The notes beneath the pieces are model-generated. The model saw only the letters and a list, made by a program, of their open reading frames with translations. It was not told the DNA's origin and did not search any database. 64,000 bases of DNA from Chaetoceros tenuissimus (Eukaryota; Bacillariophyta; Thalassiosirophyceae; Chaetocerotales; Chaetocerotaceae): the NCBI GenBank assembly GCA_021927905.1, contig BLLK01000045.1:2356001-2420000 (forward strand), given 5' to 3'. This document shows positions 2,021 to 59,466 of this stretch, one piece after another (the first letter of the stretch is position 1; every line of letters starts with the position of its first letter). The position numbers were made by a program, and so were the translations under genes.

Positions 2021-4339
2021 ATGAATGGTTCTGAATATACAAGCGGGACGCGCGGGCCGAGAGAGAAATGTGATCAGGTTATTTACGAAGCCATTGCCAA
2101 GGCAGCCGAAATAATTGTCCATGGTAGATGTCAGAATGAAAATAAGGGCGAGTCACAGGGAAACAACAATTCTACAAGTAGATTCCATTTAGAAATTGAA
2201 GAGGTTGCAAATGTTCGATCGATTTTGAAACTCTGGAAGTCGAGTCTTCACGTCCCTTTACGGCTTGATGTTTTCTACCAGTATTCTAGCGACCCAAACA
2301 ATCCTGAGAATTCTATTAGGAAAGAATTACTCGAGCGTTGGTGCATAGATTATATTCATACTTCAAATAGCATGGACAATAGCTACGGTGGAGACGAAAC
2401 TATTGCTCAGCTAAGGCATGTTGTAAAAAGAGCTGTGATTCAGCTACGTGTATTGCATTCTTTAACTCGTATTATGCCTGCTTACAAATTGCATCACGCA
2501 CTCTCAAGTGAGGAAAACCACATGACTGGAGGAGCTCACGTAGGGGGATATTATAATATGGGTCATCAACAAATAAATCATGTTTCAAAGAGTATACAGG
2601 ATTTAGTTGGGGGTTCAATCAATTATTCTTTTTATGTATCAGACACAGTCGCTCCAAATCAACGTCGACACACAGATACAACTCTATTCTCATCTAGCAC
2701 TAATAGACCATTTTCTAAACATGAGCTCAGCCCAATCCCAACTCCATTTGGAATTCTTTATTTATCTGTCCAATATGATGAATACCTCAACGTGAATAGT
2801 GTGCTACATCAAAGAACACAAAGGATGTTGGAATGTTGCAAAAGTCAGTCCGGGCCAATGCAAATTCCCAACAATAGAATAGATGATAGAAGGAACAACG
2901 ATTCAAGACATACTCAACATTCACAATCTATACCTATCAAAATTCATTCCTACAATCCAAAAGGTACAAATGATTCTAGATCAATGCACAGGCAACAATT
3001 TCATGATAGGCCACAGTTCTCAAAGCAAATGAGTATGCCAAACCAAAATTTGAATGCACTAAATCTTTCTCCAAATGTAAAGACTGATTACATGTCTTCA
3101 ACTCAGTTTGGACAAATAGAAAGACCGAAAAGTGCCGAACCGGAAAAAATAAATATTACAGAACGCTTAAGAAGTAACTCAGTTACTCATCCTGTGCAGA
3201 AAAGCAAGAAAAATCTCAGTGGTCTTTCTCTTGCTCTAATGGATGAAGAAGCTAACAAAGATGACGACTTCAACGCATGTAATCTAGCCTCTATAAAAGA
3301 TAGCTCAGAGCGAGAAGAAGATATCATTTCCAGGAGACAACGTATGGCATTTCATCACCCACCACCATCTTTTGACGAGATAAGTGACCAAATACCTGGT
3401 CATTTATCGAAAGGAAGTTATGGATATGGTTATAACACAGGTAATGTCCACCAAGAATCGCTATCTAATATTCATATCAACAATATACGAAAAAGCCCAA
3501 ACACTGTTCCGATCACGAACACACCTCCTCAACCTATGTTTCTTTCATCAACTCCTCGCGTGGTGAAAGGCGTTTCAAGTCCTTTAGAAAGAGAACCTAC
3601 TACAGATGGCAATAATGGTGTACCTTTCACGAATCCAACGTCTTTGCAAACATCTAATAGCGTCCACAACAAAAACTCCATTGGATCCATCACTTTTCAG
3701 GAAAATTTAGACAAGAACTCCTCATACAATCGGCAAATTGAACACACAAACAAAATAACGAAAGATTCTATTCTTCCTCCACTACACACTGAAGATGCTT
3801 TGGCATCGAGTCCTTTCAAACTTGGTATATCTCAAAATATTGAACCGGGTAAAAAGTCACTCTCGAAACTTTCGCACTCTCCAAACGTATCAATATTTTC
3901 GTCTCTCATTGGAAAAGGTTCTACTGGATATGCAGAAGTCTTTCCAATTGCTCTAGGTAACAGCGCAGTTTACACCTCAAACCTTTCAAACCGAACTCGT
4001 GCATTTAGTGGTCGTCTCACAAAACAATTGCAAACTAACGATACTGAAGATATGCCATTCGCAGTCGATATGGACGATTCAAATAATTCAACTTCGACTC
4101 TTACTGCCAAGACATCAAGGCAAAATAGTGGAATGGAATTCGGAAACTCTTTTGGAAATACGTCTTCTCTAGTTGTCTCATCCTTAGCACATAAATGTTC
4201 TACAGGAGCTGAAAGGTTGAAATTATTTAACAGCACTCAAAGTATGCAGAAGCAAGAATGTTCATTTGTCGACGATCAATTGAAAGATTTTCGTTCATTT
4301 GGAGATTCAATCGCAACTATCCATTCCACGAACAAGTAA
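2021..4339 (+). CDS. ATG13: Autophagy-related protein 13 (HORMA domain, disordered tail)
   Basis: A single exon encoding 772 aa. Residues about 15-265 match the ATG13 HORMA domain: ELLERWCIDYI, the block VVKRAVIQLRVLHSLTRIMP, then IPTPFGILYLSVQYDEY, which is the family's TPFG-SV-YD signature. The remaining 500 residues are Ser/Asn/Gln-rich and low in complexity, as in other ATG13 proteins, where this region binds the ATG1 kinase and is phosphorylated. ATG13 is the regulatory subunit of the ATG1 initiation complex that starts autophagosome formation under starvation. The ATG at 2021 gives the complete domain. The gene is tail-to-tail with the importin-like gene, with a 109-bp gap. Confidence 0.9.
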   Translation: MNGSEYTSGTRGPREKCDQVIYEAIAKAAEIIVHGRCQNENKGESQGNNNSTSRFHLEIEEVANVRSILKLWKSSLHVPLRLDVFYQYSSDPNNPENSIRKELLERWCIDYIHTSNSMDNSYGGDETIAQLRHVVKRAVIQLRVLHSLTRIMPAYKLHHALSSEENHMTGGAHVGGYYNMGHQQINHVSKSIQDLVGGSINYSFYVSDTVAPNQRRHTDTTLFSSSTNRPFSKHELSPIPTPFGILYLSVQYDEYLNVNSVLHQRTQRMLECCKSQSGPMQIPNNRIDDRRNNDSRHTQHSQSIPIKIHSYNPKGTNDSRSMHRQQFHDRPQFSKQMSMPNQNLNALNLSPNVKTDYMSSTQFGQIERPKSAEPEKINITERLRSNSVTHPVQKSKKNLSGLSLALMDEEANKDDDFNACNLASIKDSSEREEDIISRRQRMAFHHPPPSFDEISDQIPGHLSKGSYGYGYNTGNVHQESLSNIHINNIRKSPNTVPITNTPPQPMFLSSTPRVVKGVSSPLEREPTTDGNNGVPFTNPTSLQTSNSVHNKNSIGSITFQENLDKNSSYNRQIEHTNKITKDSILPPLHTEDALASSPFKLGISQNIEPGKKSLSKLSHSPNVSIFSSLIGKGSTGYAEVFPIALGNSAVYTSNLSNRTRAFSGRLTKQLQTNDTEDMPFAVDMDDSNNSTSTLTAKTSRQNSGMEFGNSFGNTSSLVVSSLAHKCSTGAERLKLFNSTQSMQKQECSFVDDQLKDFRSFGDSIATIHSTNK

Positions 4340-33741: not shown

Positions 33742-34443
33742 GATTTCTGTAAGACGAACACTTTTCTTCAAAGACTAGGATCTAGTGAACTGCTGCTCCT
33801 CCGAAGAGTGAGTTGTGGGTAAAGAGTGTAAGTTACGTAGAATGTGTTTGGTGTTGTTTTTATAATTTTTTTTCTCACTTTTTGCCATTTTACCTTCTTC
33901 TCGACCATCCATTATATAGCTAGAGTACCTCTATAGCTAGTTTTAAAACAAACAACGTACGTACTATATCATACCAAAAAATTTAAAAATAATTTCAGTT
34001 GATTTCAGTTCTATTTTGAATTGCAAGAATACAATGGTATGTACGGTATTGTATGTAATTAACTCATCTTCTAGGATATGAACATATATCGCATCTAATA
34101 AATGGTATCAATCATGACACATGAAACGATTATTCATACGTCAACAAAGGTAGATAGATTGAAGTGCAAGTGAAACAGTGGTAGTATGTCATGTACATTG
34201 TAATTAACTTTCTTCTAGAATATCAACATTTATAGCATCTAATAAATAGTATCGATATGGTATACGAAATAATTATTCATATATCAACTAATTTACGCAT
34301 AATGCTTTTTGTTACGATTTGGAGTAGAAGAGAAATAAATAATATAAAACTTTTATAAAAAACCTGTCAAACCTTGGTCAAACTTTACAAAAGATTTGAA
34401 ATCACCTCTCACCAGCAGATCTTGAGCTGATCATATCTAGTCA
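33742..34443. other. Intergenic with a diverged tandem direct repeat
   Basis: A 702-bp AT-rich stretch. It contains two diverged copies of a 90-bp unit (see repeat entry). No gene. Confidence 0.5.
34054..34288. repeat. Diverged 90-bp direct repeat (two copies)
   Basis: 34054-34145 and 34199-34288 share tgtaattaac, a TTCTAG block, GCATCTAATAAAT and ATTATTCATA...TCAAC, at an offset of about 145 bp. It is an old local duplication with many substitutions. Confidence 0.75.
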
Positions 34444-44850: not shown

Positions 44851-45379
44851 ACCAGGTTTCTCTTTCCACGGGACAAATAAATTTGTCTTGTATCTTCTTT
44901 TGAAATGATACTTTAAATGCCTTCCAAATGAAAAGAGCTGATACTAGGCTACATCCTTTTTACTCCAGCAACAAATAGTAATGTGCAGATCTTAATCAGG
45001 ACCAAGAGGTTTCTCCAGTCTAGGTGTGTCTCTTTGTTAGACTTCCTTATATCCTGAACCACCATCATACTAGGATAACTCTCGATTTAGATATGACAGG
45101 GTTCAAGATGAAGTATCTGATCAAACAAGTCTTCAAAGTGTCATAATTAATATTAGTAGAACCAGCGGAAGTGAGGTTGGACTTGATACTAGTAAACTCC
45201 AGGTCTCAAAGTAATACTGACATTTTGGAGTTAGTGAGTCCATGGAATGGTAAAAACCCAGCTCGAAATGTAGACTAGCGAAAATTAATCGAATCGAATT
45301 CTTTTAGACTAGAGTGTTTACAATAATTCTATAACAAGAGTATTTCTCTTGAATAAGTCCACAATTTACTCAAGATAAG

Positions 45380-46182
45380 ATGGGGGTCATTCTAGAAAGT
45401 GTCAAGTTAATTCGACAAAAAATAAAGGAGGAAAAGATTGATACTCCATTGATTGGATTCTCTGGGGCGCCATTTACACTCATGTTTTATATGCACTCAT
45501 ATTTTATATGATTGGGGGATCATTGTGTAAGAATACTGATTCTGGAATGAAGTGGTTGAATAAGTATCCTGAGCAATCGTAGAAATTATTGGATGTTTTG
45601 ACCAAGATTATTACAGAATACATGTCGGCGCAAGTAGAGGCTGGAGCGCATATGCTTCAGCTTTTTTGAAGCTATGGGAATGATATTGGAAGAGAAGGAA
45701 TTCTATGAATTTGCTACGCCATATCTAGAAAAGATTGCTACTGAATTGAAGAGCAGATATCCAGATGTTCCTCTCATGGTATTTACTCGTGGAGCTTGGT
45801 AAGTGTGACTGTAATATTTTCGAAACAGACTTGCTTGTTGTCAATCGCTCACAATGTCTTATTTTAGCTATGCGAACGAGAATCTCTCCAAAATGGGGTT
45901 TGATGTTGTAACAATGGATGGAGATGTTGACAGAAGTACTGCTAGAGCAACCGTTGGAGATAGATGTGGACTTCAAGGAAACTATGATCCAGCTGAATTG
46001 ACCGAAGATAATAGAAAGACACCAGAAACTATGAAGGAGACTGCAAAGGCTTTGATTGATGAATTGGGACTCATTGCAACCTCGGAGAAGGTCTTGGAGG
46101 AATGGAAAGCACCGATTTGGTACAAGTTTTCGTTGACACAATTCATGAGTACAGCGAAGCAAAAAATAAAGAGTCGGCATAA
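45380..46182 (+). pseudogene. hemE/UROD: Uroporphyrinogen decarboxylase pseudogene, copy A
   Basis: UROD is recognisable from [87 protein letters not shown] and, in another frame, NLGEGLGG followed by VDTIHEYSEA near the C-terminus. It is broken by a 17-bp tandem duplication (45477-45510), a nonsense TAG (45580-45582), one extra T in a run (45662-45667) and a 1-bp loss near 46077. A 69-bp intron with good sites survives (45799-45867, GTAAGT..TTTAG). The N-terminal third is missing. UROD makes coproporphyrinogen III in heme and chlorophyll synthesis; an intact gene must exist elsewhere. Confidence 0.9.
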
Positions 46183-46648
46183 ATATTTGACAAGAATATA
46201 TAAAGTCGTTTAAAAATTATTCTTCGTTGGTTCAATGAAATGACTCAATAGTACGCTAGAAGACTTTTTCTTGCTTCAATCAGAATGTAGATGAAGCACA
46301 TATGAACTCATCATTACTCAATTTGATTTTAGTCCCAAAAGCATTGCAAGGTTTCTCAATTGGCACATTCTCAGGGGTTTAAATTCGTCTAACATAAATC
46401 TTTCTTTTCTTTGGCTGCTCTACGCGTTTCCGTAACTAGCGTAGGAGTGAAAGCAAAGGATTTCATTATTTCTATTACGGTATAGTATTCATCATTTGCT
46501 TTTCTTACACGAATACGTGTATCTACGAAAGAATCTCCTATTCCAAAAACAAGATCAAATACTCATATCATCACAACTATTACCTTACAAGAAATTCTCA
46601 AGCCCCCATGCCAAAAGAATTTCTTCATATCTCATTTTGATACCTACT
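46183..46648. other. Spacer within block A
   Basis: Between the converging UROD and MYND remnants. On the minus strand a short frame near 46306-46400 (PENVPIEKPCNAFGTKI, LSNDEF) has a diverged relative at 59467-59560; it may be a remnant exon. Confidence 0.4.
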
Positions 46649-47340
46649 TTACAAGCTAACCTTCTCTAATAGATCGGAAGGAATGCTCTTGACCTCCTGT
46701 TGTAGCTTTTGAAAGTATTTGTCTGTAGCTTTTTTGCATTGGAACTTTGCTACAGCAGTTTTATTTTGGATGATATTCACCCTGCAGTATACAGTGTATT
46801 CAAATGCAAAACATATCTCGCAGTCTACAAACAAAGTCTCGATTGCCATTTCATTACATGAATGTGGTCGCGACTCAATGTCCTCCACATAAGCGATTGG
46901 TGTTTTCTTATTCTCTTCTTTGAATTTTTTAAATTCAGCAATAGATATGATTTCGTATTCATCTAATTATGAAATCTGACCAATCTCTTCTCCCATATTG
47001 ATGTAGACTATGACTCGATGAGTATTTTGTAGAGATTTCTTAGAAAAGAATTGCAATGCATTTTGTACAAATGCAGTACAGGATTGACCAAGGTTTATTT
47101 GCTCCATTTGCTTCTGCAAATTGTTTCTTCGGATGGATTTCCATCCGCGAAACAAATCTGATTTCAGACGGACGTGTGCACATCGCTGGCGAATTTCGTA
47201 AAAATCGACATTAGCAGCAGCAGTTTCTTTCTCTTCTAAAAATTTTCCGACTATCGTCACCTGTCTTTCCAATCTTTCTCCCAACTCTTTAGTAGTGATG
47301 ATGACAGGTTGATAATATTCTTGATCAAGCTCCCCAAATG
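46649..47340 (-). pseudogene. MYND-finger gene remnant, copy A (C-terminal part only)
   Basis: Contains the C-terminal part of the gene described at 57851-59230, in one frame but interrupted by a TAA after GEEIGQIS. It is cut at 47340 by the junction with element E1, so the MYND fingers are absent here. Confidence 0.8.
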
Positions 47341-49490
47341 CTCTAACTATTAAAACTAGTTTCGAAAAAGTTCTACTTTACATCTACTCTACACTATACA
47401 TCAGTATATATCATGTTCCGTTTCGAATTACGCTTAAGTAACTTGCCGCATTGCGACCCACCAACCACACGCCTATATACATATAGGTAAGTATAGCATA
47501 TCCCATGTGTTTTGAGCTCAATTGGAGCCGAAACACACTAGCTTTCTCCAAAGCTAGTTTTTGCTTGAAACACATCCTGTGTCGAAAACGTCCTCGTACA
47601 TATTCATACCACACCTCGTAGAGCAATGCTTTTCATGGTATTTTCATGGATTGTCTCTGCCTTTTCTTAGCCTTCTGGCTACATTGACCTCAATCTCACC
47701 ACCCCAACCATTTGCGTCAAGCAAACTATGGTTGTTTGCAGTTAATCTGCCTCAACCTTACCTACCTTACCTGGAAACACTCCAATTCCACACCACCATA
47801 CCTACCGGCGCCCACCCTAGCTTAGTGCGGCAACAACCTAACTTTTCACTTCTCCGTCTACATGACGTTGAATTGTTTCTTCTTATGACAGTTTTTCCTG
47901 AATACTTCACCCTCTCCGGGTTTTCCAAAAACATGTTCTTTTCACCTTACTGGCTGATGGTTCTAGTGGATACAGGCAAGTACGTACCTCCCACAGTCCT
48001 TCCATTCATGCGGCAGTCAACTTGCTTGCTTTCGAAATGCACTCTATCTGCCCAAAACGATTTCATTTCTACCTATGACAAGAAAATTATTTTTTGCACT
48101 ATTACGTACACTTTCCATCTTCATCTCCGGGTCTTCTTCTAATACCTTGAGAATACGTACATCGTGTTCCTCTCTTCCGTTCATGATGCATTCCTCTTAT
48201 TTTTACTACTTACGTCTTACGTACAACAAAGATGATATTTTACGTAGCAAAAATACAACTCCTTCTTATCGTCTATCGTCGCACCACATCTCAATAGCAA
48301 TGTGCCTCTTTCCTACATGCAAACATCTTTATATCATAAATGTGCCAATCAAAGAATCCTGCATCCACTAGCACTAGAAACGCCTCAACTATCTTCAACA
48401 TGAAATGAACAGCTCAATTGCTTTTTCATCCAAAAATGCCTGCTCACCGTAACGCCCCTTGAAACAATTCCTCCAACTCCTCTGTCACAAATGCAAAGAA
48501 AAATATACAACGCCCCTATTTACACTTCATACTGCTGACAACACTGTACCATATCCTCTGAACCAAATTGGCACCGCTATAAAAGAAGGGAGTAACATAA
48601 CACAGTGAAAATGGGACAGTTCAATAATCCTGACCGTCACAAAAGCACATACATGGGGATCTTATCTCTTATGGTGGTTCATATTACTAGCAATATCACC
48701 GACCAACACAGGATGCTTCATCTACATATATAGTGTCAGAAGACAAGACTTACTATCATGTATTTTTGACGAGAAAAGCAATCTTTCATGATTTCGTCTA
48801 CCAGCTTCTATAAACTGAATTCCGGAAACTACAGTGGTCTATGGTTTGGACACAAGCATTCCTCATCAGAGTGGCAAAACCAACAGCATGCGATACTTAA
48901 ATCCATCCAAATTTGCATTAAAACCATCGTCACTACATTCAACTCATTCGTGAAAATATGTTCTTTGGACATGACCCTGCACGGAGCATAGACTCCGCAC
49001 ACGACCTTGATAGACTACTTCCGAAAATAAATCGAAATGGACAAAGCTATGATTCGATTAAATAAAAACCTAGGCATACGCTTGATCACAAAGTGACAAA
49101 AGTGGTGCAGTATCTCTTACTCCACAAATAAACAAAACTCTATCTAAAAACACAATGAGTATATATCCCAGAATGTAACATCTGTGGCAAAGACAAATAC
49201 CCCCCCTTAATAACTCTTTCGTACACATTAATTTTCTGCCTTTATCCAAGTACGTCTCTCACATCATGGACGAACCAGATAATGACTACCTGCAATTACG
49301 AGGATAAATATTTCATAAGAGGCCCTTTTAGATAGCCCTCTCATATTATAATTATACTTGTCAAATCAATTCCCATAAAATGTCCAAAACTACATCTTGC
49401 GTAATAATCTAGGAGTAAACCAAAATTCCTACGATCTGAAGGGGATTCGATCACAACTTTCAGCTACAATATCTAAACCACGACACAGTC

Positions 49491-49659
49491 TCAAACCTCA
49501 TGCTCACCTCTCCTGACAATCTCAGGCAACACCACAAAGAAAGCATCTATCTTCAGGCCATCCTCCATGATGATTCATACCGCTACGTATGCCCTCAACC
49601 TCGTAACTTGTCCATGGAAACTCTCCTACGCCAAAACAGACTCTGACCATCCCAAATGA
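49491..49659 (+). pseudogene. Fragment of the element protein C-terminus (E1a)
   Basis: Reads ESIYLQAILHDDSY, and after a frameshift CPWKLSY, matching YLHAILHDDSYLDSMQHIASPW near the end of the E2 protein. It stops at TGA 49657-49659. Confidence 0.7.
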
Positions 49660-49670
49660 ACGTATTTACA

Positions 49671-50084
49671 AGACACCAGTCACATTCATCCGTACATTCT
49701 ATCCGCCAATGCCATGCTTTCCACCATTTCAAATACGACTATGCTTCAATCCAAATGACATGGGACGGGACCTGCTATCGAAAGATAACATCCTCACCAC
49801 GGACATAGCCATCAGGGAGCTCGACCGAAACGAAGATCCCACTCTCCACGCGCTCATGATGATATACCTCATTATTACGTTTCATGCTAACTTCTCCAGA
49901 GAACTTAAGGCAACTCCATCAAGAAAGCTCCTACATGCCATCCTCCTGATGAAAACTATAGCCAAGCCCTACACCACATCACTGCCCCATGGAAAATCAC
50001 ATACGAACAACAAGACGAAGACTATTCAGACCATCCCAATGACAGACCAAGACGATACAATCCTGACAACCCCAACCATTGAAT
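49671..50084 (+). pseudogene. Second fragment of the element protein C-terminus (E1b)
   Basis: Reads FIRTFYPPMPCFPPFQIRLC and EDPTLHALMMIYLIITF, then after a frameshift HITAPWKITYEQQ. These match FIITVYPALHPPFQYRMYF, ETPTLHVLAAIYLTATI and HIASPWTLSY in the same order in E2. An open frame of 133 codons (49709-50110) covers most of it. Confidence 0.75.
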
Positions 50085-50486
50085 ACACAACCAACTACAT
50101 CACAGGCTAAGGAATAGCTTAGGTTATAAATAATTTACTGGTACATCAGAGGACCTCTTCCTCCGAAGTACCCCTGTAGGCCATCTGCGGACAGCCTACT
50201 TGTAGCGTGTATGATTGGTATACCATCATGCATGCACCAGGCCTCAAGAGACTCTGTCTCCTGAGGTCATGTTCTCTATACATATAGAGCTCTAGGGTGG
50301 ATGCTGGCGACTCTTAATACAGTACAATGCGCTCATCCTACCTCTACTTGTGAGTTCGTGGTCCCGCAGCGGGCTATTAGTACACGTAATACCATCGCCT
50401 GATATATATATATGTATATATATATATAAATAATGGCATTTCGGATGGGAAAAGTGTTAGCACTGCTGAAGGAAAACTAGAATATT

Positions 50487-50506
50487 AACCTAAACCTAAA
50501 CCTAAA
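50487..50506 (+). repeat. (CCTAAA)n telomere-like tail of E1
   Basis: AACCTAAACCTAAACCTAAA, directly followed by block B. The C-rich strand reads into the block, the orientation of a left chromosome end. Confidence 0.9.
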
Positions 50507-50934
50507 CATCCTTTTTACTCCAGCAACAAATAGTCATGTGCAGATCTTAATCAGGACCAAGAGGTTTCTCCAGTCTAGGTGTGTCTCTTTGTTAGACTTC
50601 CTTATATCCTGAACCACCATCATACTAGGATAACTCTCGATTTAGATATGACAGGGTTCAAGATGAAGTATCTGATCAAACAAGTCTTCAAAGTGTCATC
50701 ATTAATATTAGTAGAACCAGCGGAAGTGAGGTTGGACTTGATACTAGTAAACTCCAGGTCTCAAAGTAATACTGACATTTTGGAGTTAGTGAGTCCATGG
50801 AATGGTAAAAACCCAGCTCGAAATGTAGACTAGCGAAAATTAATCGAATCGAATTCTTTTAGACTAGAGTGTTTACAATAATTCTATAACAAGAGTATTT
50901 CTCTTGAATAAGTTCACAATTTACTCAAGATAAG

Positions 50935-51737
50935 ATGGGGGTCATTCTAGAAAGTGTCAAGTTAATTCGACAAAAAATAAAGGAGGAAAAGATTGATACT
51001 CCATTGATTGGATTCTCTGGGGCGCCATTTACACTCATGTTTTATATGCACTCATATTTTATATGATTGGGGGATCATTGTGTAAGAATACTGATTCTGG
51101 AATGAAGTGGTTGAATAAGTATCCTGAGCAATCGTAGAAATTATTGGATGTTTTGACCAAGATTATTACAGAATACATGTCGGCGCAAGTAGAGGCTGGA
51201 GCGCATATGCTTCAGCTTTTTTGAAGCTATGGGAATGATATTGGAAGAGAAGGAATTCTATGAATTTGCTACGCCATATCTAGAAAAGATTGCTACTGAA
51301 TTGAAGAGCAGATATCCAGATGTTCCTCTCATGGTATTTACTCGTGGAGCTTGGTAAGTGTGACTGTAATATTTTCGAAACAGACTTGCTTGTTGTCAAT
51401 CGCTCACAATGTCTTATTTTAGCTATGCGAACGAGAATCTCTCCAAAATGGGGTTTGATGTTGTAACAATGGATGGAGATGTTGACAGAAGTACTGCTAG
51501 AGCAACCGTTGGAGATAGATGTGGACTTCAAGGAAACTATGATCCAGCTGAATTGACCGAAGATAATAGAAAGACACCAGAAACTATGAAGGAGACTGCA
51601 AAGGCTTTGATTGATGAATTGGGACTCATTGCAACCTCGGAGAAGGTCTTGGAGGAATGGAAAGCACCGATTTGGTACAAGTTTTCGTTGACACAATTCA
51701 TGAGTACAGCGAAGCAAAAAATAAAGAGTCGGCATAA
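50935..51737 (+). pseudogene. hemE/UROD: Uroporphyrinogen decarboxylase pseudogene, copy B
   Basis: Carries the same four lesions and the same intron as copy A at the 5555-bp offset. Broken before the block was duplicated. Confidence 0.9.
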
Positions 51738-52203
51738 ATATTTGACAAGAATATATAAAGTCGTTTAAAAATTATTCTTCGTTGGTTCAATGAAATGACT
51801 CAATAGTACGCTAGAAGACTTTTTCTTGCTTCAATCAGAATGTAGATGAAGCACATATGAACTCATCATTACTCAATTTGATTTTAGTCCCAAAAGCATT
51901 GCAAGGTTTCTCAATTGGCACATTCTCAGGGGTTTAAATTCGTCTAACATAAATCTTTCTTTTCTTTGGCTGCTCTACGCGTTTCCGTAACTAGCGTAGG
52001 AGTGAAAGCAAAGGATTTCATTATTTCTATTACGGTATAGTATTCATCATTTGCTTTTCTTACACGAATACGTGTATCTACGAAAGAATCTCCTATTCCA
52101 AAAACAAGATCAAATACTCATATCATCACAACTATTACCTTACAAGAAATTCTCAAGCCCCCATGCCAAAAGAATTTCTTCATATCTCATTTTGATACCT
52201 ACT

Positions 52204-53279
52204 TTACAAGCTAACCTTCTCTAATAGATCGGAAGGAATGCTCTTGACCTCCTGTTGTAGCTTTTGAAAGTATTTGTCTGTAGCTTTTTTGCATTGGAAC
52301 TTTGCTACAGCAGTTTTATTTTGGATGATATTCACCCTGCAGTATACAGTGTATTCAAATGCAAAACATATCTCGCAGTCTACAAACAAAGTCTCGATTG
52401 CCATTTCATTACATGAATGTGGTCGCGACTCAATGTCCTCCACATAAGCGATTGGTGTTTTCTTATTCTCTTCTTTGAATTTTTTAAATTCAGCAATAGA
52501 TATGATTTCGTATTCATCTAATTATGAAATCTGACCAATCTCTTCTCCCATATTGATGTAGACTATGACTCGATGAGTATTTTGTAGAGATTTCTTAGAA
52601 AAGAATTGCAATGCATTTTGTACAAATGCAGTACAGGATTGACCAAGGTTTATTTGCTCCATTTGCTTCTGCAAATTGTTTCTTCGGATGGATTTCCATC
52701 CGCGAAACAAATCTGATTTCAGACGGACGTGTGCACATCGCTGGCGAATTTCGTAAAAATCGACATTAGCAGCAGCAGTTTCTTTCTCTTCTAAAAATTT
52801 TCCGACTATCGTCACCTGTCTTTCCAATCTTTCTCCCAACTCTTTAGTAGTGATGATGACAGGTTGATAATATTCTTGATCAAGCTCCCCAAATGTCTTT
52901 TTTGGTTGATGATTTCATGATCATTTCATTTCTTTACGCTTTTGACTCAAATCTACGATTGCCACAGCTCTTGGCTCTTCTGCCACAATAAAAGTCTGAA
53001 CATTATAATTGAATTCAACTTCTACAAGGACAACTTTTGCTGGCGGTTGCTGCTCAAAGTCTTTTTCATCGGAGGCATGATATACTGCGGAACCTAATGG
53101 TGCCATTTTGGTTTGTTCTGGTACCCATTTTTGAAGGAGATGATAAATATTAATTCCTGTTGAATCAACAGATCTTTCCAAATGTTTCAATCTTTCACGA
53201 TCAAACTTGCACTGGCTTTTATGTCTTGGCCAATCTTCAACTCGGCACTCGCGGCTGCAATAATAAACTTTTTTACATT
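52204..53279 (-). pseudogene. MYND-finger gene remnant, copy B
   Basis: Longer than copy A: it reaches into the second MYND finger, whose last part reads SRECRVEDWPRHKSQ, and is cut there by the E2 tail. It shares the two TGA codons after QKRKEMK (near 52915) and the TAA (near 52520) with copy C. One substitution pair near 53197 differs from C. Confidence 0.85.
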
Positions 53280-53303
53280 AGGTTTAGGTTTAGGTTTAGG
53301 TTA
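53278..53303 (-). repeat. (CCTAAA)n telomere-like tail of E2 (TTTAGG on + strand)
   Basis: Four TTTAGG units on the + strand, joined to block B's ACATT with a TT microhomology. The orientation is that of a right chromosome end. Confidence 0.9.
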
Positions 53304-56300
53304 TCTTTCTAGTTTACCTTGGACGTACTATCACCATTCACGCTATCACGCCGATGTTTCAGGCAGCGATAAAAGGTGTTAATATAGGACGCTGCGGGAC
53401 CGAGATTACATTAATTAGACTGTGACCCTGATTACAGACGGATTTCTCCTCCCTGTAACCCGGTGGGTCCTAGTGACTTTCGCAGAAAGCCACTAGGGAT
53501 TTTTGACGTACCTAGTCTATTCCTTCGCCTGTGTATTGATACTGTTTTGTAATGGAGTTAAATGATTTCGGTATATTATATGAGAGTGTCCAGGGTGAGG
53601 CGATGTGTTGCATTGAGTCAAGGTAGGAGTCGTCATGTAGGATTGCGTGAAGATATGTCATTTCTCTGTAGATTCTGGTCATACTGCGTGGATTAAGAAT
53701 ACCGTAGTCTTGTATTGTGTCGTAGCTGAGGCATTGTGGCGGAATTGTTGCTGTGAGGTAGATCGCTGCTAGAACATGTAGGGTTGGTGTTTCCTGCGGG
53801 AGCAGGCTGATGTAATGGACAGGGATAGTATTTTGTGGAAAGTGGTACTCAGGCAGTTCATCAATCTTTGATCCTTCATGAAAGTACATGCGATATTGGA
53901 ACGGTGGATGGAGGGCCGGGTATACCGTTATTATGAACGATTCTGGTGTTGGACCAAGTCTTTGGTTGGGGTCCCTGTTAGGATGATCTTGAAAGCTCCA
54001 TGTTATGATAGTTTGATATTCTGTTGTTAGTTGGAGTTGTTTTGTCGGAAGCGGATGATCCTGATTTATGGAGACCTTTCTAATTTGGATGTATGGAAGT
54101 GCTTTTGCAAGATTTGGAAGGTTTGTGTCGATATATGCCTCTGGATAGTGTCCATACTCAGGCTCTCGGATACCATCGAAATATGGGAAGGTTGGGTGAC
54201 TGTAAGTGAGGTACATGGGCCTGAGGGATGGAAATTTGCTAGGATGGAAGGTGTGATGGACTTTGGTAACTATATTGTGTGACCTAGCCTCCACATATTG
54301 ATTAGGGAATTTCATTGGTTTCGGTCGCGGTGGGAATGGTTTGAACTCAGTGAAGGGTACATCTTCCAGGAGTTCCTGATAGTGAAAGTCAGGATCTTCA
54401 GTGAAAGGGTATTGTTCTCGTAGAAGAGGCTCTTGTCTTGGTTGAAATATTTCTTCTGGAGGAATAACTTGATGGTGCACTGTGGATGGTATGATGTGAC
54501 TAATGTAGCTGTAGGGAGTAGTATGTACAACCGTACTCATGTTGGGTGTTGTCCGATACGTGAGCGCATACCATGTTTGTGCTGGATTGTTTTGGATGAT
54601 GATTGCTGTAAGGAAGCAGGATTCACAGGGCATATTGGGATATTTAATATCGTGGATGACTCGATCACAAGAGATACAGGTGGTGTATGTTGCTGTGGAT
54701 ACATTTTTTGGACGATGATTGTTTTTGATTAGGGATGAGCATTGTCGACATATATCGGTGTCATTGTGTACAACTGGAGCGGATTCTGTGCACTTGCAGA
54801 ATGTTGTGGCTCTTGTGAGTAGCCTATGGATGTGATATGGATTGCGTAGAGAGGGGAATTCATGTGTGAGAGATGGTGAAGTAGAGATGAGGGTTGCATA
54901 AGCCACATGTTGGAGAACTAGATCCTGGAGGGATTGATCTGGTTCGCTGTAATGTGCATCATCCGGATGAAGGAAGTTCAGCCTGGGTGATATTTGGTTA
55001 ATGATAGTGGTAGGAATCGAATTGCAGATGATATCTCTGATTTCGTCCAGTGGGACTGGGTTTGCCGCCGTATTATTGGCCAGAGTATGGAGTCGCATTT
55101 GGTGTGGTGCAAGTGGTGTATATTGGGAAAGGAGCGCCATGGCCGACGGTCTTGGGATGAGCTGTGCAATAATTCCAGTAGAGAGCTGCACCGCTTCTTG
55201 CATGAGCACACATTGGCTGCAGTTGGATGCAGTGCTTGTCATTGTATATGGCATGGCCGCGAATTGTCTGAGCGTGCACCATGTTCCTTGGCATGGAACC
55301 TTTGGTCTTTTCTTACTCGGGACTTGCATTGGCTTTGGCGATGGAAGCTCTTCTTCTTTTGGAGGTTGAGCTGTTTTATAGGTCAGGATCTGTTTGTCTT
55401 TGTACTCATTGAGTACACTCTGTATTTTGTGTTGGAGTTTTTCGGCTTTAGTTTGAAGCTGCTGGAGGAGTTGATGATACATCTTGATGCAATATGCTGA
55501 TAGCTTGCTTTGATCTGCAGGCTGAAGAAGGTGGCATAGAGTATCGTGCTCGGCAGATCGAGCACTTGCTGATTGGAGATGTGTATACACTTCCGCTATT
55601 GTGAGAGGCTGCGCATCAAGTCTTTCCTGTGCCGACTGATGAATGCGGATGGCTTGAGTGTATTTAGTGGTTATCATATGAATGTATTCCTCTATTGCAA
55701 GATGGGTATTCGTTGGGAGAAGGCCAAGTAAAGCAATGACGGCAGTGTGTTCATCTGGATAAGTTGGTGTTGTACTCGATGGACCTACAAGATGTGTGTA
55801 ATGAGCAACTGTAGGCTCAAGCGGTGGGTGGAGTGTGGGATTTCCAATCCAATGCGGCTTGCTAGGATATCCGAGCTCCGCAAATGGCGGGTAGATGGTA
55901 GTGTTAATGTATTCCTGTTGTTCCTTTTCCGACAGTGGTGTAACGAGTGTTGCATTTTGTATGGCTGCCCGAAGGAAGAGGGAGAACCTTGGGATAAATC
56001 GTGTAGGCTGTGGATCAGGTTGGATAATGCTAATCATGTATCTGGTGAGGCTGTCAAGAGCACGAAGTACGTCATTGATTGGTTCGAGTAGGGTTCTACG
56101 TCTATTCGAGATCGTGCCATGTGTACATGCAAGATGGAAGTGAGCTGTAGAGGCTGGAATTGTGGAATCTGGGCAGAAGGGACATGATAGCATTGTGGTT
56201 GTGATTTTTGTTGTTGGCATGGTGTCCTCTGGATGACAGGATAGCTGGAAGCATTTTCTGTAGTCTTCAAAGATGTGGATCAGTCGTTGATGGGAATGCG

Positions 56301-56683
56301 CTTTCTCTTGTGCTATATTTCGGAGAATTTTGGAATTTTGAAATGTATTGAGTGGATCAGAGAAATATGGGCAGAATTGAAGGAACCACTGTGCCGGATT
56401 TTCAATGGCAAGCTTGTAGTTATGACTCATAAATTGATTTAGAATATATTGCGTGATGTCAGTGTTGACCAGTCGCGCTCTGTGCTGAAATATGTATTGA
56501 AGAGTTTGCATCGGCGGATGTGATATGTCTGAGAGAATGAAGTGGGGAAGCACGTCAAGTAATGCTTGTGCCATCCTTGATGCTGCTCTATCTGCCAATG
56601 TGTTAGCCAATGCCAGGGCGAGATTGGGGTGCGGTGGAACTTTGATTCGAACTCCGTCGACGGTTTTGGTGCGTATCCGACCA
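53280..56683 (-). mobile_element. Element E2: retroelement-like copy with long open reading frame and (CCTAAA)n 3' tail
   Basis: 3.4 kb on the minus strand between blocks B and C. In element sense it has a long C-rich ORF (stop at 53512), a 13-bp hairpin with 3-nt loop only 15 nt after the stop (53469-53497), the motif GGTCCCGCAGCG (53390-53401), AAACTAGAAAGATAACC and the tail. Its 5' end runs into block C with the ORF still open, so it is 5'-truncated, as retrotransposons commonly are. No reverse transcriptase, endonuclease or transposase motif is recognised in what remains. Confidence 0.75.
53469..53497 (-). other. Hairpin in the E2 3' UTR
   Basis: CCTAGTGACTTTC / GAAAGCCACTAGG with loop GCA; in element-sense RNA the single mismatch becomes a G-U pair. 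E1 has an equivalent hairpin at 50242-50266 with the same 3-nt loop size. Confidence 0.8.
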
Positions 56684-56688
56684 ATGTT
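53512..56688 (-). CDS. Unknown element protein with Cys/His clusters (5'-truncated ORF)
   Basis: The frame is open for 1058 codons, from just after a TAA at 56691 inside block C. The first ATG is at 56574 and the true start is probably lost. The protein is rich in Pro, Thr, His and Gln. Visible features: a C2H2-like motif (CPFCPDS...HFHLACTH) near residue 150; a helical Gln-rich region (LHQLLQQLQTKAEKLQHKI); a Lys/Pro basic stretch; and a Cys-rich double-ribbon-like region (CKCTE, CRQC, CISC, CESC; about 620-690). The C-terminus has aromatic/Pro-rich sequence shared with E1. Composition and codon use differ sharply from the host genes. No known catalytic motif was recognised. Intact length against a decayed background suggests recent arrival. 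Confidence 0.7.
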   Translation of the reverse strand, partial: NIGRIRTKTVDGVRIKVPPHPNLALALANTLADRAASRMAQALLDVLPHFILSDISHPPMQTLQYIFQHRARLVNTDITQYILNQFMSHNYKLAIENPAQWFLQFCPYFSDPLNTFQNSKILRNIAQEKAHSHQRLIHIFEDYRKCFQLSCHPEDTMPTTKITTTMLSCPFCPDSTIPASTAHFHLACTHGTISNRRRTLLEPINDVLRALDSLTRYMISIIQPDPQPTRFIPRFSLFLRAAIQNATLVTPLSEKEQQEYINTTIYPPFAELGYPSKPHWIGNPTLHPPLEPTVAHYTHLVGPSSTTPTYPDEHTAVIALLGLLPTNTHLAIEEYIHMITTKYTQAIRIHQSAQERLDAQPLTIAEVYTHLQSASARSAEHDTLCHLLQPADQSKLSAYCIKMYHQLLQQLQTKAEKLQHKIQSVLNEYKDKQILTYKTAQPPKEEELPSPKPMQVPSKKRPKVPCQGTWCTLRQFAAMPYTMTSTASNCSQCVLMQEAVQLSTGIIAQLIPRPSAMALLSQYTPLAPHQMRLHTLANNTAANPVPLDEIRDIICNSIPTTIINQISPRLNFLHPDDAHYSEPDQSLQDLVLQHVAYATLISTSPSLTHEFPSLRNPYHIHRLLTRATTFCKCTESAPVVHNDTDICRQCSSLIKNNHRPKNVSTATYTTCISCDRVIHDIKYPNMPCESCFLTAIIIQNNPAQTWYALTYRTTPNMSTVVHTTPYSYISHIIPSTVHHQVIPPEEIFQPRQEPLLREQYPFTEDPDFHYQELLEDVPFTEFKPFPPRPKPMKFPNQYVEARSHNIVTKVHHTFHPSKFPSLRPMYLTYSHPTFPYFDGIREPEYGHYPEAYIDTNLPNLAKALPYIQIRKVSINQDHPLPTKQLQLTTEYQTIITWSFQDHPNRDPNQRLGPTPESFIITVYPALHPPFQYRMYFHEGSKIDELPEYHFPQNTIPVHYISLLPQETPTLHVLAAIYLTATIPPQCLSYDTIQDYGILNPRSMTRIYREMTYLHAILHDDSYLDSMQHIASPWTLSYNIPKSFNSITKQYQYTGEGID

Positions 56689-57380
56689 TTATATGCACTC
56701 ATATTTTATATGATTGGGGGATCATTGTGTAAGAATACTGATTCTGGAATGAAGTGGTTGAATAAGTATCCTGAGCAATCGTAGAAATTATTGGATGTTT
56801 TGACCAAGATTATTACAGAATACATGTCGGCGCAAGTAGAGGCTGGAGCGCATATGCTTCAGCTTTTTTGAAGCTATGGGAATGATATTGGAAGAGAAGG
56901 AATTCTATGAATTTGCTACGCCATAGAAAAGATTGCTACTGAATTGAAGAGCAGATATCCAGATGTTCCTCTCATGGTATTTACTCGTGGAGCTTGGTAA
57001 GTGTGACTGTAATATTTTCGAAACAGACTTGCTTGTTGTCAATCGCTCACAATGTCTTATTTTAGCTATGCGAACGAGAATCTCTCCAAAATGGGGTTTG
57101 ATGTTGTAACAATGGATGGAGATGTTGACAGAAGTACTGCTAGAGCAACCGTTGGAGATAGATGTGGACTTCAAGGAAACTATGATCCAGCTGAATTGAC
57201 CGAAGATAATAGAAAGACACCAGAAACTATGAAGGAGACTGCAAAGGCTTTGATTGATGAATTGGGACTCATTGCAACCTCGGAGAAGGTCTTGGAGGAA
57301 TGGAAAGCACCGATTTGGTACAAGTTTTCGTTGACACAATTCATGAGTACAGCGAAGCAAAAAATAAAGAGTCGGCATAA
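56684..57380 (+). pseudogene. hemE/UROD: Uroporphyrinogen decarboxylase pseudogene, copy C (5'-truncated)
   Basis: Begins within the 17-bp duplication and keeps the TAG, the extra T and the 3' frameshift. It has in addition a 4-bp deletion at the PYLEK codons (near 56925). Confidence 0.88.
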
Positions 57381-57850
57381 ATATTTGACAATATATAAAG
57401 TCGTTTAAAAATTATTCTTCGTTGGTTCAATGAAATGACTCAATAGTACGCTAGAAGACTTTTTCTTGCTTCAATCAGAATGTAGATGAAGCACATATGA
57501 ACTCATCATTACTCAATTTGATTTTAGTCCCAAAAGCATTGCAAGGTTTCTCAATTGGCACATTCTCAGGGGTTTAAATTCGTCTAACATAAATCTTTCT
57601 TTTCTTTGGCTGCTCTACGCGTTTCCGTAACTAGCGTAGGAGTGAAAGCAAAGGATTTCATTATTTCTATTACGGTATAGTATTCATCATTTGCTTTTCT
57701 TACACGAATACGTGTATCTACGAAAGAATCTCCTATTCCAAAAACAAGATCAAATACTCATATCATCACAACTATTACCTTACAAGAAATTCTCAAGCCC
57801 CCATGCCAAAAGAATTTCTTCATATCTCATTTTGATACCTACTTTACAAG
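57381..57850. other. Spacer within block C
   Basis: Same content as 46183-46648; includes the short DEF-type remnant at about 57502-57595. Confidence 0.4.
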
Positions 57851-59230
57851 CTAACCTTCTCTAATAGATCGGAAGGAATGCTCTTGACCTCCTGTTGTAG
57901 CTTTTGAAAGTATTTGTCTGTAGCTTTTTTGCATTGGAACTTTGCTACAGCAGTTATTTTGGATGATATTCACCCCGCAGTATACAGTGTATTCAAATGC
58001 AAAACATATCTCGCAGTCTACAAACAAAGTCTCGATTGCCATTTCATTACATGAATGTGGTCGCGACTCAATGTCCTCCACATAAGCGATTGGTGTTTTC
58101 TTATTCTCTTCTTTGAATTTTTTAAATTCAGCAATAGATATGATTTCGTATTCATCTAATTATGAAATCTGACCAATCTCTTCTCCCATATTGATGTAGA
58201 CTATGACTCGATGAGTATTTTGTAGAGATTTCTTAGAAAAGAATTGCAATGCATTTTGTACAAATGCAGTACAGGATTGACCAAGGTTTATTTGCTCCAT
58301 TTGCTTCTGCAAATTGTTTCTTCGGATGGATTTCCATCCGCGAAACAAATCTGATTTCAGACGGACGTGTGCACATCGCTGGCGAATTTCGTAAAAATCG
58401 ACATTAGCAGCAGCAGTTTCTTTCTCTTCTAAAAATTTTCCGACTATCGTCACCTGTCTTTCCAATCTTTCTCCCAACTCTTTAGTAGTGATGATGACAG
58501 GTTGATAATATTCTTGATCAAGCTCCCCAAATGTCTTTTTTGGTTGATGATTTCATGATCATTTCATTTCTTTACGCTTTTGACTCAAATCTACGATTGC
58601 CACAGCTCTTGGCTCTTCTGCCACAATAAAAGTCTGAACATTGTAATTGAATTCAACTTCTACAAGGACAACTTTTGCTGGCGGTTGCTGCTCAAAGTCT
58701 TTTTCATCGGAGGCATGATATACTGCGGAACCTAATGGTGCCATTTTGGTTTGTTCTGGTACCCATTTTTGAAGGAGATGATAAATATTAATTCCTGTTG
58801 AATCAACAGATCTTTCCAAATGTTTCAATCTTTCACATTCAAACTTGCACTGGCTTTTATGTCTTGGCCAATCTTCAACTCGGCACTCGCGGCTGCAATA
58901 ATAAACTTTTTTACATTTTGAGCATACGCTCAATTTAGATCCAATATCAGCACATGTTTTTGGGCAGTTTTCACATATTTCATGGGTGTCTTTGCGGTGT
59001 TGAAGTTCCTTCTTCCCTTCTTGTTTGTCCTCCTTTTTGCTGTTACCATTGCATGTTTTCTTACATGCAGATTTGTGCATCTTCCATTGCTTGACCTGAC
59101 ACTCGCCTTTGCAAAAGAACACATCAACTCCGGCGTCACGACAAGGGGCGCATTGGAGTACTGCTCCTTCCTTGTTACAGGCTGCACATGAGCCTTCGTC
59201 AGGCTTCTTAGTAGTTGTTGTAGAGGGCAT
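57851..59230 (-). pseudogene. Two-MYND-finger protein gene, broken downstream, copy C (most complete)
   Basis: From the ATG at 59230 (MPSTTTTKKPDEG) an intact frame of 223 codons encodes two MYND zinc fingers. These are CAACNKEGAVLQCAPC...CKGECQVKQWKMHKSAC and CENC...CSKCKKVYYCSREC...HKSQC, typical protein-interaction modules. The frame then meets two TGA codons 6 nt apart (near 58556), but the same frame continues for about 230 more codons (TFGELDQEYYQPVIITTKEL onward), broken again by TAA near 58160 and by a 2-bp deletion unique to this copy. The parent gene was about 460 codons. The N-terminal half could still be translated; otherwise it is a pseudogene. Confidence 0.8.
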
Positions 59231-59466
59231 GACTTGATGGACGTTGAATATGACGATGCAATGATGTGGATAGGTATACAGATGCAATGGTGAGTTTAGT
59301 ACGGAGAGTTTAGTGCAGTGCTCTCTTGTTTCTCCCAGTTTCTTAGCCGTGTCATTGTGCATAGTGTCAATATTGTCATTGCGGTCTGTTGTTGCCTGAA
59401 GGTTTTTCCCTGGTTCATTCAAATTGTCATTGCTTCACAATCTGGTCTGCACATGCTGTATGTAAA

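Follow-up and report, generated by a model that had tools for sequence, protein, structure and literature searches.

The locus described here raises a simple question: how did one host segment come to be present three times, with a mobile element placed exactly at each junction between the copies? It lies in a 64-kb window of the genome of the diatom Chaetoceros tenuissimus (the window is the whole stretch of DNA analyzed, C32:2356001-2420000; C13, C14 and similar labels denote contigs of the 41.03-Mb, 68-contig assembly). The published assembly of this species, built from Illumina and Nanopore data, totals 41 Mb, and its 85 scaffolds reach lengths of up to 4.46 Mb (PMC8613185). We found that the two elements, designated E1 and E2, belong to a family of retrotransposons whose copies are, as a rule, flanked by kilobase-sized direct repeats. 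E1 and E2 are very probably independent insertions, in opposite orientation, of long interspersed elements (LINEs) that would have entered by target-primed reverse transcription (TPRT) with the second strand attached far downstream of the first nick.

Structure of the Triplicated Block

Comparison of the window with itself (E<=1e-10, matches of 60 bp or more) revealed that three blocks, designated A (44951-47344), B (50506-53279) and C (56684-58917), are nearly identical. Block A corresponded to 50506-52898 of block B over 2394 bp (99.83% identity, with 3 mismatches and 1 gap), positions 51037-53279 of B corresponded to block C over 2243 bp (99.42% identity), and 45482-47344 of A to 56684-58536 of C (99.41% identity). 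The segment separating A from B is E1 (47345-50505, plus strand), and the one separating B from C is E2 (53280-56683, minus strand). When the junctions were read, all four ends of the two elements adjoined repeat ends exactly, and for both elements one repeat copy stopped at the 5' end and the other began at the 3' end. Such an order of junctions is what a target-site duplication (TSD) would leave. For E1, block A is the upstream copy (plus strand, stopping at the 5' end of E1) and 50506-52898 in block B, identified by self-comparison and junction reading, is the downstream copy (plus strand); for E2, in the orientation of the element, block C is the upstream copy and 51037-53279 in block B the downstream one, both on the minus strand.

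A first-pass annotation, made from the sequence alone, had proposed the layout A-E1-B-E2-C with exact junctions, and direct repeats of 2.39 kb around E1 and 2.24 kb around an oppositely oriented E2; self-comparison and junction reading bore out both statements. It had also extended the block to 59230, whereas the repeated part of C stops at 58917, and had placed the same element at each junction. The latter had to be revised: E1 and E2 have in common only the 3' tail and short patches of 62-88% identity near the 3' end, which shows that they represent two different subfamilies.

A LINE Family Ending in (AACCTA)n

Judged by its coding regions and termini, the family is a non-LTR (non-long-terminal-repeat) retrotransposon, or LINE, with an AP-like endonuclease (APE), a reverse transcriptase (RT) and an (AACCTA)n tail. 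Copies in C48, C58 and C21 were 99.98-100% identical and started at different points (7075, 6013 and 5928 bp, respectively), and the longest of these, the 7075-bp copy in C48, contained a single open frame of 2279 aa that encodes the RT. The RT was recognized above the Pfam cut-off at residues 114-355 of the RT-bearing open reading frame (ORF) (RVT_1, E=1.7e-8), and the endonuclease, also above the cut-off, in an upstream ORF of the 10.55-kb copy C32:2208307-2218858 (Exo_endo_phos, E=2.2e-6). D-E-D-like motifs reminiscent of RNase H were seen by eye after the RT, with no Pfam match at E<=10. The C-terminal region of ~1000 aa, the part kept by E2, was shared with seven further, partial copies at 37-90% identity. 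Across copies, a constant tailed 3' end was combined with variable 5' truncation, a LINE feature, and self-comparisons detected the flanking repeats and no repeat common to both element ends, as long terminal repeats would be. Both the (AACCTA)n tail and a GGTCCCG box were present in 10/10 aligned 3' ends (chosen from 29 and including E1 and E2); a 20-base tail sequence occurred 40 times in the genome (6 times for the reversed control), at 25 distinct 3' ends.

Homology searches with the RT returned 7 matches at E<=1e-5 among 6403 candidates, and no match in PDB. The APE-containing ORF gave 9 weak PDB matches (best E=0.001), in which its residues 282-346 align with viral spike coiled coils; we took these as coiled-coil chance. 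Its first 290 aa gave one match (E=0.52). A consensus fold of the 3' end had 7 pairs, was weak and was not used as support. We rejected a telomere-directed element, as the tail unit (CCTAAA) differs from the telomere reported for the species (TTAGGG, PMC8613185) and most copies lie well inside their contigs, the exceptions being C13 and C40:4377.

E1 (3161 bp, longest ORF 193 aa) is, on sequence grounds, a member of a non-autonomous subfamily of LINE relatives; its tail was read at 50487-50505 (plus strand) from the motif position. A 99.7% identical copy was found at C14:1732495-1735547 and a 92% identical one in C27, and the last ~1 kb of E1 was related to coding subfamilies in C14 and C34. 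The match to the C14 sister begins at E1 base 111: the 5' end of E1 (110 bp, 47345-47454, plus strand) and that of the sister (188 bp, C14:1735548-1735735) are unrelated, possibly reflecting a 5' template switch to another RNA or transduction of upstream sequence.

E2 (3404 bp) is a 5'-truncated LINE copy whose tail, likewise read from the motif position, occupies 53280-53302 (minus strand). By ORF prediction and copy comparison, it retains the C-terminal 1032 aa of the LINE ORF, downstream of the RT (53512-56610, minus strand). A CCHC-like motif was seen in this ORF by eye only; no Pfam family was detected above cut-off, and a homologue search gave 0 matches at E<=0.001 among 2038 candidates. 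E2 matched copies in C14, C58, C48, C21 and C13 at 89-90% and in C40 at 88%. Five copies align from E2 base 6, and a complete 3.4-kb element lacking RT was considered; this was ruled out by longer copies, as the relatives in C48, C58 and C21 reach further upstream than E2.

Kilobase Repeats Flank Most Copies

We further examined the occurrence of flanking repeats throughout the assembly. Among the best-scoring candidates, at least 29 3' ends were found (25 with the exact tail, plus C28, C43, C62 and C44:1064351), and the flanking-repeat outcome was readable for 21 copies, hereafter the resolvable set. This set leaves aside C13 (inside a satellite), C40:4377 (at a contig start, with no repeat found in the sequence examined), C28, C43, four 3' ends of two arrays in C33 and C48, a tailless outer piece in C40, and RT-only fragments such as that in C65.

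Sixteen of the 21 resolvable copies were flanked by direct repeats of 0.58-3.13 kb (median 1757.5 bp) that adjoined the element in TSD register. Identity between the two repeat copies was 98.7-100%, the lowest value coming from a 307-bp part of C16:564061, and 7/16 repeats were 100% identical over the compared extent. Both repeat copies were read for 11 elements. Given as repeat and element length, these were E1 (2394 and 3161 bp), E2 (2243 and 3404 bp), C14:1732488 (1868 and 3250 bp), C21 (583 and 5928 bp), C58 (1832 and 6013 bp), C40:42389 (1710 and 3940 bp), C48:929114 (1080-1090 and 7075 bp), C34 (1678 and 7018 bp), C44:950309 (1615 and 5663 bp), C27 (2681-2693 and 3079 bp) and C19 (1139 and 4947 bp). 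For the other five, part of the extent was taken from search coordinates: C32:2218858 (3131-3134 and 10552 bp), C16:564061 (about 1805 and 4094 bp), C16:429570 (about 1163-1173 and 3405 bp), C38 (1145 and 2697 bp) and C14:1115803 (repeat of 1807 bp), in which the element is interrupted by another element and the repeat lies further upstream. The link between element arrival and kilobase duplication proposed in the first-pass annotation is therefore genome-wide, holding for these 16 of 21 copies; the check that it had suggested, on whether further copies are bordered by kilobase repeats, was thus positive. In the remaining five the alteration was short, a deletion or not found, so that its refuting case, copies with a short duplication or none, also occurs. 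In total, the 21 copies comprised 17 duplications (16 kilobase-scale and one of 80 bp), 1 deletion and 3 cases with no alteration found.

Insertion Mechanism and Alternatives

Several features of the junctions bear on how these copies arose. In 12 tailed copies with junctions read, the downstream repeat began directly where the tail ended, and the pre-insertion site lacked the tail at 11/11 junctions compared. Microhomology between tail and target amounted to 14 bases summed over 11 sites versus 4.5 expected, a value reached in 0.12% of 20,000 draws. By eye, no clear motif was shared among the sites at either border. Together, 5' truncation, the constant tailed 3' end, the tail-free pre-insertion site and the excess of microhomology suggest TPRT. 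On this reading, 16 copies would have their second site 0.6-3.1 kb beyond the first nick on its downstream side; in one further copy that distance is 80 bp, and in another the second site would lie 284 bp upstream.

In the mechanism we propose, the first target strand would be nicked and the tail of the element RNA would pair with 0-3 target bases. Synthesis of cDNA would start from the nick and often end early, giving 5' truncation. In a departure from ordinary LINEs, the cDNA would be joined by a top-strand 3' end located 0.6-3.1 kb downstream of the first nick, and fill-in on both sides would convert the whole interval into a direct repeat flanking the element. The net product would be a tandem duplication with an element at the junction.

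A number of observations weigh against this reading. The support for TPRT is indirect, coming from tail, truncation and microhomology, and the structures of repeat, element and repeat (T-E-T) are known here from assembly sequence. Only one copy was read so far upstream that the APE domain could be seen, and the ORF that carries it is not the one with the RT. Five of the 21 resolvable copies lacked a kilobase repeat: C44:1064351 has a TSD of 80 bp; C14:1111737 was inserted in another family copy with 284 bp of target deleted; C32:566047, a 97-bp copy, had no repeat in the 3.1 kb examined, where a repeat longer than ~3 kb is possible; C48:982266 had no matching flank copy in the genome; and C62 had no near-identical match to its first 706 flank bases among the 40 of 81 candidates scored, a dispersed repeat beginning beyond these bases. 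C44:1064351, C48:982266 and C62 are diverged copies (72-86% identical to E1 or E2), so that an older repeat might have decayed. Repeat length was also uncorrelated with element length (Spearman -0.23, p 0.41, 15 sites), which ruled out a timing model tying the one to the other.

Among alternative explanations, a host trait is possible, if somewhat doubtful: C. tenuissimus may lack or under-use repair factors that keep the second nick close to the first, in which case any LINE would give kilobase TSDs. Human L1 provides a parallel, with TSDs of >100 bp in 47/58 inserts (4/7, 21/23 and 22/28) in XPA-, XPC- and XPD-deficient lines, that is, cells deficient in nucleotide excision repair (NER), and at or below 10% in HeLa cells (PMC5223499). 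Coding and non-autonomous subfamilies in the diatom alike show long duplications. On the other hand, C. tenuissimus carries a virus-derived insert, ascribed to a host LINE, whose TSD (TTTTATG) is short (PMC8613185), and within one host the length of the TSD is said to vary with the LINE species (PMC4245944). These two observations lean toward the element rather than the host, although neither is decisive.

It is rather unlikely that the second strand was supplied by a replication fork. Here, beyond the first nick, the nascent 3' end would jump back to the cDNA, copy the element and recopy the target, producing T-E-T with no second cut. Such priming would explain why the alteration is nearly always a duplication in the tally above, and would make long strand separation unnecessary. 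However, the lack of correlation between repeat and element length speaks against it, and deletions are perhaps under-represented through selection.

The first-pass annotation had offered two readings of the repeats, as TSDs or as segmental duplications with the element captured at their breakpoints. The first is favored; capture fits less well because the tailed 3' end adjoins the start of the downstream repeat. We consider it improbable that segmental tandem duplication by end joining or template switching captured LINE cDNA at the breakpoint, even though this would likewise put an element at every junction and would fit the tailless element piece in C40, which has a 1336-bp repeat. The exact position of the tail in all 12 copies read and its microhomology, which indicates priming, argue otherwise, and element-free duplications of this kind are few. 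In 191 kb of sequence (the window and stretches of at least 6 kb selected for the elements they contain), direct repeats of at least 300 bp and 97% identity that do not border a tailed element numbered three: the 1336-bp repeat of the tailless piece, the C13 satellite and a tandem of 492 bp in C48. Finally, an assembly artefact or joined haplotypes, conceivable for a Nanopore/Illumina assembly with an estimated heterozygosity of 1.56% (PMC8613185), is extremely improbable, since the repeats (98.7-100% identical, 7/16 at 100%) are mostly above the identity expected of joined haplotypes and 16 loci with differing truncations would each need a false junction at the 5' end of the element.

Arrays and Nested Copies

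In two arrays, the element end and its flank were themselves repeated: 3072 bp at 100% identity after 8043 bp (C33:896022-907136) and 3223 bp at 99.69% after 7640 bp (C48:1747929-1758791). Unequal exchange between long TSDs would give such arrays, whose formation long repeats would favor. It is possible, though less likely than not, that this retrotransposon lineage joins the second strand a kilobase or more away as its normal, built-in pathway. It would then act as a segmental-duplication machine, in which most jumps duplicate 0.6-3 kb of the host and the long repeats formed expand further into T-E-T-E arrays.

Additional arrangements were observed elsewhere. At C14:1103523-1115806, one family member lies within another, with the 284-bp target deletion instead of a duplication. 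In the nested structure at C40:39342-50743, the inner 1710-bp repeat stops at the 3' border of the outer tailless piece, which carries its own flanking repeat of 1336 bp. The copy at C13:4500-13254 is located inside a satellite with a 330-bp period, and the 492-bp direct repeat of C48 (923512-924929, 99.8% identity) is near an element but does not adjoin it.

Host Sequences Affected by the Insertions

The duplicated segment of the window contains a URO-D-like fragment (45854-46213, plus strand, Pfam URO-D E=9.8e-7), with copies at 51409-51768 and 57052-57408. A MYND-finger ORF is located at 58559-59422 (minus strand, Pfam zf-MYND E=7.9e-17), and its 3' part is duplicated in block B at 52921-53190. 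Two opposite insertions at nearly the same place have left three copies of the segment with the URO-D-like fragment and two of the 3' part of the MYND-finger ORF; the few sequence differences could fit either E1 or E2 having been inserted first. The only further repeat listed in the self-comparison of the window was an adjacent pair of ~130-135 bp at 34016-34288 (78% identity), and an Rfam scan of the window gave no match at gathering scores.

Retrotransposition may thus be a source of tandem duplication of gene segments such as these two. With a usual host duplication of 0.6-3 kb, roughly hundredfold more than is usual for LINEs, a jump of this family also makes a segmental duplication.

Comparison with Known Systems

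APE-type non-LTR retrotransposons with simple-repeat tails include the I, CR1 and RTE types, and LINE TSDs are usually 5-30 bp, a length that is typical but not required. The diatom family resembles these elements in its combination of APE and RT, its short tandem-repeat 3' tail and its 5' truncation; it differs in that its TSD is kilobase-sized rather than short and in its C-terminal region of ~1000 aa, which has no Pfam family above cut-off.

Few steps of retrotransposition are understood as poorly as the choice of the second-strand site by LINEs, and a natural family with a routinely distant second site could be compared directly with L1 and ZfL2. The standard model yields a TSD when the second strand is cut downstream of the first cut, and target truncation when it is cut upstream (PMC2666801). 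The first-pass annotation had regarded the signature as undescribed, with TSDs beyond those of known elements. This view could not be maintained, as kilobase TSDs have been reported for human L1 in NER-deficient cells and also as rare events in normal cells (PMC5223499, PMC5717806, PMC2666801). For example, 18 of 47 long L1 TSDs in NER-deficient cells exceed 1 kb (PMC5223499), and in CSA-deficient cells the medians are an ordinary 12-13 bp with single TSDs up to 29,902 bp (PMC5717806). The L1 and ZfL2-2 precedents indicate that the kilobase outcome itself was already known. Among the matches listed from open-licence PMC papers, we found no report of kilobase TSDs as the rule for a natural LINE family, and their being the rule in a family of a wild genome would be the new element here.

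Thus, the diatom family is similar to human L1 in NER (XPA/XPC/XPD)-deficient cells, where LINE TSDs range from hundreds of bp to several kb (PMC5223499), but the long TSDs of L1 were observed in repair-deficient cultured cells and those of the diatom family in a natural genome, at 16/21 resolvable copies. It is also similar to zebrafish ZfL2-2, a LINE that gives a TSD or a target truncation depending on the position of the second cut (PMC2666801). In wild-type chicken DT40 cells, one ZfL2-2 insert among 25 had a TSD of 1228 bp (PMC2666801); such long alterations are rare for ZfL2-2 in wild-type cells, whereas they are the rule for the diatom family.

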